A stretch of 64,000 nt of DNA, taken from NCBI GenBank assembly GCA_018713515.1, contig DVOO01000029.1, positions 57,154 through 121,153 on the forward strand, in the 5' to 3' direction. The notes beneath the pieces are model-generated. The model was not told the DNA's origin. It worked only from the letters and a program-made list of their open reading frames with translations, and made no database searches. Positions 56,555-61,058 of this stretch are shown piece after piece. The first letter of the stretch is position 1, and each line of letters starts with the position of its first letter. Made by a program: the position numbers and the translations under genes. The stretch is from Candidatus Scatomonas pullistercoris. Its GTDB lineage: Bacteria > Bacillota > Clostridia > Lachnospirales > Lachnospiraceae.

Positions 56555-57169
56555 CTATACGTCCTCAAGATTCACCATTTCCTGTCCCTGTCTGTTCTCT
56601 GGATTCCCGCGGGTTCCCGCGTAGATCCCGATTCCCAGCAGTACCGCCAGAACCAGCAGCGCCGCGCCGGAAATGCATGCTTTCCGGAACTTTCTTCTGG
56701 AGGAACGCTGCTCTCTCTTTCCCAGCCGGTCCAGTCCCTCTTCTACCGCTTCCGAAAGTTCCTCCGGAATGTCAATAGCCGTTACTCGCCTTACCTCTTT
56801 TCCGATCTCCGCCGTATCCTGGCGCATATTTGCCTTTGCCCGGTCCAGATAAGCCTTCACAGAGCCCTCCGGAATATCCATGGCGTAAGCGATCTCCCCA
56901 ATCTCCATCTTCTGCATATGGCGGAGATACAGGGCGGTGAGATATCGGTTGGGCTTCTGATTAATAGTACTCTCCGCCAGCAGGCCTCTGGTAATCTGCA
57001 GCTTAAAGCTCTGCCCGTCATCCAGATCTCTGATTCTCCGAAAGCCTTCACAGGCAGCCGTGCGTACCGCCTCCAGCGCCGGCTGCTTATCCCCCAGATA
57101 GAAGAAAGCAATCCGGTACAGATACTCGCTCTGCTCCCTGAAAAGGTTCGCGTATACTTTTAACTTCAC
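56555..57169 (-). CDS. Sigma-70-family-like protein with C-terminal membrane anchor
   Basis: N-terminal sigma2/sigma4-like region (MEIGEIAYAMDIPEGSVKAYLDRAKANMRQ), then IPEELSEAVEEGLDRL...RRKFRKACISGAALLVLAVLLGIGIYAGTRG single TM. Confidence 0.8.
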   Translation of the reverse strand: MKLKVYANLFREQSEYLYRIAFFYLGDKQPALEAVRTAACEGFRRIRDLDDGQSFKLQITRGLLAESTINQKPNRYLTALYLRHMQKMEIGEIAYAMDIPEGSVKAYLDRAKANMRQDTAEIGKEVRRVTAIDIPEELSEAVEEGLDRLGKREQRSSRRKFRKACISGAALLVLAVLLGIGIYAGTRGNPENRQGQEMVNLEDV

Positions 57170-57922: not shown

Positions 57923-58254
57923 ATTATCTTCCATATCTTTCTGTATCTCAAAAATACCATTCCTGTCATATCTCTTCCTTCGCATCTCCGTACATTTATT
58001 TTCTCTGCCCCATCAGTTTCAGTTTATCACATAATTCCCGATTGTCCATAGCAGCCGGCCCTTGCCGCAGTTAACATACTGCTTACATTTAATTTACATA
58101 TATTTGATTGTGAATTTTCCTGCGGCCTGTTACCATACAATCACTATATTCAAAGGGTATATTCTTGCCTTCTTTTCAGGTCCGCCGCGCCGCGGCCCCG
58201 AAAATTCCCAATTCTTTTCGTACTCTATATAACAGGAGGGGTGGAGCACAGAAG

Positions 58255-58992
58255 ATGGTAAATACAGAACATGAAATTGTGGAAAAAGTTTACGCCGCCA
58301 AAACGGATTCCCGGGCGGCTGATGCGCTGATTCAGCAGTATCTCGGATTCATCCGGAAGGAGGCGGCCCGCACTGTTTACCGGACCGGCAGCAGCCGGGA
58401 GGACGAAGAAAGCATCGCCATGTTTGCCTTTTATGAAGCCATATTAAGCTATGAAAAGGACCGGGGCGCTTTTCTCTCCTACGCCGCAAGGGCGATCCGG
58501 AACCGCCTTATCGACTATTACCGGAAAGAAAAAAGGCACCGGAAAATCATTTCCCTGGATACGCCTTTCCAGGCGGAGGACGAGGGGATCCGTCTGATGG
58601 ATACGCTGGCCGACGATACCGACCACTTTGACGGCTATGCACACCGGGAGGCAAGTCAGCAGGAAATCCGGGAATTTGAAAAAAAGCTGGAGGAATTCGG
58701 AATTTCCTTTTCCGATGTGGCGGACAACTGCCCCCGGCAAAAACGCACTTTTACCGCCTGTATCCGGGCACTGGAATACGCCAGAGAGCATCCGGAGCTC
58801 CTGGAGCAGCTCCTTCGCAGCAGAAAATTACCCGTCAGTGAGCTCTCCGCCGGTTCCGGCACTGACCGGAAGACCATGGAGAGACACCGGAAATATCTCG
58901 TGGCTATCCTGCTGGCATTCACCAACGGCTATGAAATCATCCGGGGACATCTCTGTCAGATCGGAAAAGGAAAGGAGGAAGCTGCCATATGA
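58255..58992 (+). CDS. sigI: RNA polymerase sigma factor SigI
   Basis: QYLGFIRKEAARTV...DEESIAMFAFYEAILSYEKDRGAFLSYAARAIRNRLIDYYRKEKRH; C-terminal SigI-type HTH; followed by rsgI with ATGA overlap. Confidence 0.92.
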   Translation: MVNTEHEIVEKVYAAKTDSRAADALIQQYLGFIRKEAARTVYRTGSSREDEESIAMFAFYEAILSYEKDRGAFLSYAARAIRNRLIDYYRKEKRHRKIISLDTPFQAEDEGIRLMDTLADDTDHFDGYAHREASQQEIREFEKKLEEFGISFSDVADNCPRQKRTFTACIRALEYAREHPELLEQLLRSRKLPVSELSAGSGTDRKTMERHRKYLVAILLAFTNGYEIIRGHLCQIGKGKEEAAI

Positions 58993-59870
58993 AATATCTG
59001 GTTATGGAAACTCATCCGTCCTATGCAGTGCTTCTGGACCAGTCCGGCCGTTTCCTGAAAGCAGCAAATCTGAACTACCATGTGGGCGATACCGTAACGG
59101 ATATTATAGAACTGTCGCCTGTACCAGACACCGGCCAGAAGCAGCTCCGTCTGCTACGCAGAATAACGGGAAGCCTGACGGCCGCCGCAGCCTGCTTCCT
59201 TCTGCTGTTCTTCGGCGTATACCGGCCAAACTTCACGCCATACGGAACCGTACGTCTTCAGATCAATCCCGATATTCAGATGACGTTAAGCAAGACGGAA
59301 CGGGTCCTGGATCTGGACGCGCTGAATCCGGACGGGGAGGCCCTGCTGGAAGGGTACGAGTACCGTGGGAAAGACCGCGAACAGGCTTCCGAAGAACTGG
59401 TCAGCCGCGCTATGGATATGGGATATCTGGGCGAAGGCGGCATTGTCTCTATTACCGTGGAAAGCGATGACAGCAGCTGGCGGCAGGAGGAGGAAGAAAA
59501 GTCCCTGTCCCAGATGCGGGAAAAATACGGCAGAACTATTATCATCCGCACAGGCATTATGGAGGGAGAAACAGAAGAACCTCCGCTGCAGACAGAATCG
59601 GACGTGGAAATTATTATTGATCTGCCCACGCCTACCCCTGCACCCCAGACAGTAACGCCTACACCCGCCCCTGTCATCATACCTTCAGATGACGATGACG
59701 ACGATAATGAGGGTGTCATCCAGCCGGGCGATGACGATGATAATGGCGATGACTGGGAGGAGGTTCCCGGGGATAATAGCGGCAATGTTCCGGATGATGA
59801 CAGCGAGGACGGGGATGACGATGACAGGGATGACGATGATGACGGTGACGGCGATGATGACGATGATTAA
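58989..59870 (+). CDS. rsgI: RsgI-like anti-sigma factor with Asp-rich extracytoplasmic tail
   Basis: Short cytoplasmic RsgI-N-like region, one TM (AAAACFLLLFFGVY), periplasmic module VRLQINPDIQMTLSKTERVLDLDALNPDGEALL, Thr/Pro linker, poly-Asp tail. Confidence 0.88.
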   Translation: MKYLVMETHPSYAVLLDQSGRFLKAANLNYHVGDTVTDIIELSPVPDTGQKQLRLLRRITGSLTAAAACFLLLFFGVYRPNFTPYGTVRLQINPDIQMTLSKTERVLDLDALNPDGEALLEGYEYRGKDREQASEELVSRAMDMGYLGEGGIVSITVESDDSSWRQEEEEKSLSQMREKYGRTIIIRTGIMEGETEEPPLQTESDVEIIIDLPTPTPAPQTVTPTPAPVIIPSDDDDDDNEGVIQPGDDDDNGDDWEEVPGDNSGNVPDDDSEDGDDDDRDDDDDGDGDDDDD

Positions 59871-59975
59871 AATTTTTTCAGTTTTTTTCCTTCCAACCCC
59901 GGTTTTGGGAAAAGGGCCCCGTATTCTTCTGACATAAAAGCAAAAAAATTTTGGAAATGGAAAGGAGATCAAACT

Positions 59976-61058
59976 ATGACGAGGAAAGTAAACTTTAAAA
60001 AAACATGTATCGCATTAACTTCCGGTATTCTTTTGGCAGGTATGACGGCCTGCGGTTCCAGCCAGGAGACCGCGCAGGTCAGCACGCAGCCCAGCCGCCC
60101 CGCCTCTGTTACTCCCGAAACAGACAGCAATGAACCCGCCGGCACACTCCTGCTGAGTGTCAACCCGGAGATTGAAATTGCCTATGACAGGACAGGTGAT
60201 GTACTTTCTCTGGAAGGACTGAATGAAGACGGTAAAGCTGTAGTTTCCTCCTGCACCGGCTATGAAGGCCAGCCCTGCCGGGAAGTGGCGGGGGAACTCG
60301 TAACAGCAATAAATGAAGGGGGATATTTTGACACCACCATAGCCGGTCATGAGAAAAACATTATCCTGAAGCTGGCAAAGGGCTCTGAATATCCCCACGC
60401 GGAATTTCTGGATGAAATAGCCGATGAGATCCGGATCACTGTGGAAACGAATCAGATCGGTTCTCAGGCTGTAGCCCTTGACGATGATGATTATGACGAT
60501 GTTCTGGGCGAAAAAGGCTATATCGGTGAGCAGGCGGCGCAGGAAATTATCTCCGCGCAGCTGGGCCGCGATGATCTGCAGTTCACCGTAAAGGAATATG
60601 AGCTGGATGACGGGATTTATGAGATTGAATTTATCATGGACGGTGTGGAATATGAGTACGAAGTAGACGCCGTTACCGGAAAGGTCCATGAGGCAGAGCG
60701 GGATGACGATGGCGGAGCACAGATTCCTGCTGCCGGTACACCGGCCCCTGCTGCTCCCTCCCCCACTGTTCCCCCGCAGACAGGCAATTTTGATGACGAC
60801 TGGGATGACATTTACGAGGATGACCGGGATGACGATGACATTGACGATGATGACTGGGATGACGGGCCGGATGATTCATACGACGATGATTACGATGATG
60901 ACTGGGACGATTATTATGACGATGACAGCGATGATGACCGGGATGATGATGACATTGACGATAATGACTGGGATGACGATAATGAAGATGATGACCGCGA
61001 TGATGATTGGGACGATATGGATGATGATCAGAATGATGACGACGACGATGACGACTGA
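59976..61058 (+). CDS. Secreted lipoprotein with RsgI-like periplasmic module, PepSY-like region and Asp/Trp-rich tail
   Basis: Lipobox LLAGMTAC; LLLSVNPEIEIAYDRTGDVLSLEGLNEDGKAVV resembles the RsgI periplasmic module; ELDDGIYEIEFIMDGVEYEYEVDAVTGKV PepSY-like; tail DDDWDD... Confidence 0.85.
   Translation: MTRKVNFKKTCIALTSGILLAGMTACGSSQETAQVSTQPSRPASVTPETDSNEPAGTLLLSVNPEIEIAYDRTGDVLSLEGLNEDGKAVVSSCTGYEGQPCREVAGELVTAINEGGYFDTTIAGHEKNIILKLAKGSEYPHAEFLDEIADEIRITVETNQIGSQAVALDDDDYDDVLGEKGYIGEQAAQEIISAQLGRDDLQFTVKEYELDDGIYEIEFIMDGVEYEYEVDAVTGKVHEAERDDDGGAQIPAAGTPAPAAPSPTVPPQTGNFDDDWDDIYEDDRDDDDIDDDDWDDGPDDSYDDDYDDDWDDYYDDDSDDDRDDDDIDDNDWDDDNEDDDRDDDWDDMDDDQNDDDDDDD
60819..60977 (+). repeat. Imperfect 45-bp coding repeats (two copies, 60819-60863 and 60933-60977)
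   Basis: GATGACCGGGATGACGATGACATTGACGATGATGACTGGGATGAC vs GATGACCGGGATGATGATGACATTGACGATAATGACTGGGATGAC. Confidence 0.85.

Follow-up and report, generated by a model that had tools for sequence, protein, structure and literature searches.

A candidate three-gene sigma-I circuit with a lipid-anchored copy of the RsgI periplasmic module

SigI and RsgI constitute a cell-wall and polysaccharide sensing system that is known mainly from Bacillus and from cellulosome clostridia. In the Lachnospiraceae genome considered here, the sigI-rsgI pair is followed by the gene of a lipoprotein, and a preliminary description of the locus held that this lipoprotein carries a second copy of the RsgI periplasmic module. 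The locus raises the question of what a lipid-anchored copy of a sensor domain might do beside the sensor itself, and how closely its gene is tied to SigI.

The three genes lie on the forward strand in the order sigI, rsgI, lipoprotein gene, at positions 58255–61058 of the window, i.e., of the whole stretch of 64,000 nucleotides that was analysed. The first (58255–58992, +) encodes a sigma-I family sigma factor of 245 amino acids, assigned from NCBIfam SigI models (best model E = 1e-49; TIGR02895, E = 2e-47) with every score below the curated cut-off, and it is the single sigI match in this genome. Its stop codon is overlapped by the start of rsgI (58989–59870, +), which encodes the anti-sigma-I factor of 293 amino acids with a sub-threshold RsgI_N match (18.8 bits vs. 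a cut-off of 25), one transmembrane helix by hydropathy (about residues 59–77; 59163–59219, +), a periplasmic module (residues 85–180; 59241–59528, +) and an acidic, low-complexity C-terminal tail (59688–59867, +). The initial reading of this gene, as an rsgI with one transmembrane helix and the RsgI periplasmic module, was borne out, the module matching Pfam RsgI_M (PF23750) at E = 2e-21 and 77 bits (cut-off 25.3). The lipoprotein of 360 amino acids (59976–61058, +) comprises a signal peptide (59976–60053, +) with the lipobox GMTA-C, Cys26 (PS51257), an RsgI_M module (residues 60–171; 60153–60488, +), a PepSY domain core (residues 205–237; 60588–60686, +; PF03413, 3e-7) and a poly-Asp C-terminal tail (60768–61055, +). 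As had been stated from the letters, the protein matches the lipoprotein pattern and is devoid of the anti-sigma parts: a profile search of it for RsgI_N gave no match, and it has no transmembrane segment besides the signal peptide, the lipobox standing in its place. The lipoprotein thus differs from RsgI anti-sigma-I factors in lacking the cytoplasmic SigI-binding domain and the transmembrane helix, without which it fails as such a factor, and in having a lipid anchor, PepSY and a predicted SigI promoter of its own. Elsewhere in the window, an ECF-like sigma factor (56555–57169, − strand; region 4 match) carries in the same polypeptide a C-terminal hydrophobic segment that is probably transmembrane.

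The second module was recovered by the profile search (RsgI_M, PF23750; E = 8.2e-15, 56 bits, cut-off 25.3), in agreement with the original claim, and alignment of RsgI with the lipoprotein gave 35% identity over 65 amino acids (E = 1e-9). A comparison of AlphaFold2 models, as suggested in the preliminary description, returned the same order of structural elements in both modules (pLDDT 92.8 for the lipoprotein, 88.8 for RsgI), with Asn-Pro in the turn that joins strand 1 to strand 2, and Foldseek placed both on solved RsgI periplasmic domains. For the lipoprotein module, the top structures were those of B. subtilis RsgI (8t9n_B, E = 7e-7, TMt 0.75, prob 1.00) and C. thermocellum RsgI2 and RsgI6, with 8hdj likewise at prob 1.00, and the closest structures (8t9n, 8hdj, 8heq, and 8her) are all RsgI anti-sigma-I factors. 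For the RsgI module they were B. subtilis RsgI (8t9n, prob 1.00) and C. thermocellum RsgI2, RsgI6, RsgI1, and RsgI9. As modelled, the lipoprotein module has the RsgI periplasmic-domain fold.

The likeness extends to the Asn-Pro pair, which the lipoprotein module shares with the RsgI_M domains of B. subtilis RsgI and C. thermocellum RsgI1–9. The pairs fall at exactly the codons first reported, namely Asn93-Pro94 of RsgI, the expected self-cleavage bond (AAT CCC; 59265–59270, +), and Asn63-Pro64 of the lipoprotein (AAC CCG; 60162–60167, +). Self-cleavage of the periplasmic domain is the first cut in C. thermocellum RsgI, and is followed by RseP and ClpXP (PMC12203970). B. subtilis RsgI is reported to be constitutively cut, with halves that remain joined while the wall is intact; a disordered region has been proposed as the sensor of gaps in the wall, and RasP then releases SigI (PMC10202637, PMC13059805). 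Further, the PDB chains 8her_B, 8hep_B, and 8u9o_B, all from related RsgI, begin with the aligned Pro, i.e., are in the post-cleavage state. The lipoprotein module probably self-cleaves at Asn-Pro too, in which case strand beta-1, on the lipid anchor, would be all that retains its body. If this is the case, the RsgI_M domain would have a use other than in anti-sigma factors, namely that of a tether that can be released. The genome studied here encodes a third RsgI_M protein (G000:C26:128589-128960; L043 3452–4177, − strand) of 242 amino acids, with one transmembrane helix and no RsgI_N, which is unlinked to sigI and has lost Asn-Pro, the site reading SIDGASSLEL; the DNA directly upstream of it codes for a stretch resembling sigma region 4, which may belong to a truncated sigma factor.

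How widely the arrangement occurs was addressed by a survey of sigI-rsgI loci for a third lipoprotein gene, another step that had been proposed at the outset, and at least 74 such triads were found. Among 150 family genomes searched by profile, 49 have RsgI_M, and in eight, the genome studied here included, the lipoprotein lies near sigI-rsgI. A search of a one-genome-per-species collection yielded 159 relatives. Its best 80 loci were inspected, and the triads among them, plus the window and the loci from the family genomes, make up the de-duplicated set of 74, most of which stem from that collection. They span two phyla, occurring in Lachnospiraceae, Oscillospiraceae, other Clostridia, and Coriobacteriia (e.g., Olsenella and Thermophilibacter), with the genes on the same strand in 73/74 and a median gap of 107 nt. 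The lipobox pattern PS51257 is matched in 73 of the 74 orthologues, that of the window among them. Asn-Pro is retained in every one of the lipoproteins (74/74) and RsgIs (74/74), although these counts may be biased upward since NP was contained in one of the two retrieval peptides; lipoproteins that came out of an independent search of 392 class genomes by profile have it as well. In a tree, the modules of the lipoproteins group in a single clade (SH-aLRT 99.8, from only 87 alignment columns). RsgI-like membrane proteins that combine RsgI_M with two or three PepSY stretches per chain (L013, L014, L016, and L021) have the same ectodomain layout as the lipoprotein, RsgI_M then PepSY, but are single membrane-anchored chains, whereas the lipoprotein is such an ectodomain alone beside a separate RsgI.

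The preliminary description had placed the lipoprotein gene in a SigI operon. The tie to SigI stands, both in genomic position and in promoter sequence, but a single third gene of one operon is too narrow a picture, since the gene has a sigma-I promoter of its own, is divergent at L042, and occurs elsewhere as lone copies. Sites of the form CCCC-N19-CGTA precede both sigI (CCCCGAAAATTCCCAATTCTTTTCGTA; 58196–58222, +; −35 CCCC, 19 nt, −10 CGTA) and the lipoprotein gene (CCCCGGTTTTGGGAAAAGGGCCCCGTA; 59897–59923, +). Their geometry matches the published sigma-I consensus, which is ACCCCC--AA-15N-CGAA in Bacillales with CGWA in C. thermocellum (PMC4711584), and the CGTA form of the −10 element is bound by SigI3 (PMC10575876). 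When the loci were scanned with CGHA allowed 13–15 nt after the A/T run, a sigma-I site was found upstream of the lipoprotein gene in 71/74 loci and upstream of sigI in 60/74, compared with means of 0.37 and 0.31, respectively, in shuffled sequence. A first impression that Coriobacteriia have no lipoprotein promoter was ruled out, as their −10 element is CGCA rather than CGTA at the same 19-nt spacing (e.g., L072, L074–L077, and L104). Two to four tandem sites precede the lipoprotein gene at L219, L215, L146/L156, L149/L158, and L179/L194, and at the first of these (genome G398) the stretch from rsgI to the lipoprotein gene holds four, all in the orientation of the latter. With its own and sometimes tandem promoter, the lipoprotein gene is therefore a predicted SigI target.

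At lone copies of the gene, the promoter mostly accompanies sigI. The promoter is retained at the lone lipoproteins L098, L112, L115, and L220, where sigI is elsewhere in the genome, and is absent at L124 and L225, whose genomes gave no sigI match. Two loci do not fit: L078 has the promoter although no sigI was detected in its 1.0-Mb assembly, and the promoter is missing at L224 despite the presence of sigI. Genome-wide, pattern searches with the strict promoter matched 27 times in 20 cassette genomes and 32 times in 31 additional genomes, with all but a few of the matches at sigI or a lipoprotein gene, a tally in which weaker SigI targets may be overlooked; the same pattern had 0 matches in 20 same-family genomes without RsgI_M. 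Two off-cassette matches (G160:C73 and G175:C4) were set aside as chance because they lie inside long reading frames, and six other relaxed matches in the present genome were rejected, being near the reversed-pattern control (8 vs. 4) and without the T-run. Promoter patterns thus point to an apparently small SigI regulon in cassette genomes, in which the lipoprotein is probably the main SigI output besides sigI-rsgI itself. One strict promoter away from the cassette (G003, L140 928–1446, − strand) precedes a secreted protein of 172 amino acids with a PepSY-like domain and a poly-Asp/Trp/Arg tail, without RsgI_M, i.e., a second SigI-linked acidic-tail protein.

The two membrane-side proteins also resemble each other in their C-terminal ends. 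The median net charge of the tails in the family is −34 for RsgI and −34.5 for the lipoprotein, and tails of the same locus are more alike in 3-mers (cosine 0.41) than tails of relatives (0.33 and 0.35; p = 0.002 and 0.013). The difference between same-locus and relative comparisons is weak when plain amino-acid composition is used instead (p = 0.03 and 0.11), and local low-complexity drift could therefore account for part of the match. The ends of lipoprotein-partnered RsgIs have a net acidic fraction of 0.48, compared with 0.14 in unpartnered RsgI_M proteins of Lachnospiraceae (p = 9e-10), two sets that differ in subfamily as well. Distances among RsgI modules correlate with those among lipoprotein modules (r = 0.88; partial 0.62 given SigI distance), which fits co-evolution and is no demonstration of contact.

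Taken together, the lipoprotein keeps the module and tail of RsgI without the signal-relaying parts, and its gene has a SigI promoter. We propose, with confidence evenly divided, that the three genes form a sigma-I circuit: a lipoprotein that is expressed under SigI and mimics the ectodomain of RsgI would act as both effector and brake of the response. An envelope stimulus would pull the periplasmic module of RsgI apart, whereupon site-2 and Clp proteolysis would release SigI, and the freed SigI would transcribe sigI-rsgI and, strongly, the lipoprotein gene. The lipoprotein would then occupy the same membrane-to-wall space as RsgI with a like polyanionic tail, and would remove or compete for the stimulus that RsgI senses; because it would be placed where the sensor is, damping of the stimulus is the simplest reading. 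A more specific version, which we regard as doubtful, is that of a dedicated circuit with a breakaway lipoprotein as the main SigI output, in which a self-cleaved module of the kind that fires the sensor, with its parts joined non-covalently, would also tether the effector, the stress that activates SigI would shed the polyanionic body from its lipid anchor, and new copies would reset the sensor.

Alternatively, the lipoprotein may be purely regulatory, engaging RsgI directly as a decoy or partner (e.g., by exchange of strand beta-1 between cleaved modules) and only tuning SigI, while protection comes from other genes under SigI control. The fold and Asn-Pro common to both proteins, module distances that correlate beyond SigI, and the feedback that the SigI promoter would supply are all consistent with this. 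However, the strict pattern reveals almost no other SigI targets, leaving little to regulate, second lipoproteins are located away from rsgI (L115, L220), and the consensus around Asn-Pro differs between the lipoprotein (LSVNPEI..Y) and RsgI (INP.V) modules. We consider a purely regulatory role unlikely, and favor an effector over it because of the small apparent regulon, in which a loop made of a brake alone would be purposeless.

The opposite extreme, to which we give the same low probability, is an effector without signalling feedback, i.e., a SigI-induced acidic surface lipoprotein that binds cations or cationic peptides or acts as a wall spacer, with RsgI_M as a structural anchor. The standing of the lipoprotein as the apparent main SigI target would agree with this, as would the poly-Asp PepSY-like protein of G003 (L140), which is behind a strict sigma-I promoter without having RsgI_M, and the occurrence of RsgI_M in other lipoproteins without a nearby sigI (L047). 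Such a role, however, leaves unexplained the strict retention of Asn-Pro, as well as the likeness of tails within pairs and the tight linkage to rsgI. It is less probable by far that the lipoprotein acts upstream, sensing the stimulus and promoting cleavage or dissociation of RsgI in positive feedback; SigI control is compatible with positive as well as negative feedback, but RsgI has a module and tail of its own, and it is common for RsgI-like proteins to have no lipoprotein neighbour. Finally, a neutral by-product, i.e., a duplicated RsgI ectodomain hitch-hiking in the operon, has a possible source in the RsgI_M and PepSY membrane proteins described above, but is highly improbable given the conservation of one clade with lipobox, Asn-Pro, and its own promoter across Clostridia and Coriobacteriia.

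The proposed effector-and-brake circuit shares with the sigma-I regulons of B. subtilis SigI and C. thermocellum SigI3 and SigI6 the ACCCC...CGWA geometry and the autoregulation of sigI-rsgI (PMC4711584). The described targets of C. thermocellum SigI factors are cellulosome genes (PMC4711584), whereas here nearly all strict sites belong to the cassette and its lipoprotein. A search of the literature, covering open-licence papers, found none in which RsgI is linked to a lipoprotein partner, to PepSY or to Lachnospiraceae, and within that literature the initial statement that the arrangement is undescribed holds. The modules, the promoter type, and the sigma system are already known; it is the three-part, SigI-driven arrangement that appears to be new. 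The lipoprotein, as a third component that is conserved in gut Clostridia and Coriobacteriia and preceded by its own predicted SigI promoter, would be a candidate output and feedback arm of SigI signalling, and the cassette offers a simple, testable loop.

RsgI_M also occurs in further settings. Lipoproteins with RsgI_M and Asn-Pro are encoded at L047 (3073–4350), where the protein has a C-terminal DnaJ-type CXXCXGXG domain, and similarly at L048 and L050, with no sigI match in the stretch read. At L040 and L041, likewise with no sigI match in the stretch read, RsgI_M proteins are encoded in pairs in which one member has an internal transmembrane helix and the other an N-terminal one only; both members are acidic-ended, and the pairs may represent a comparable two-copy arrangement that involves a different sigma factor.
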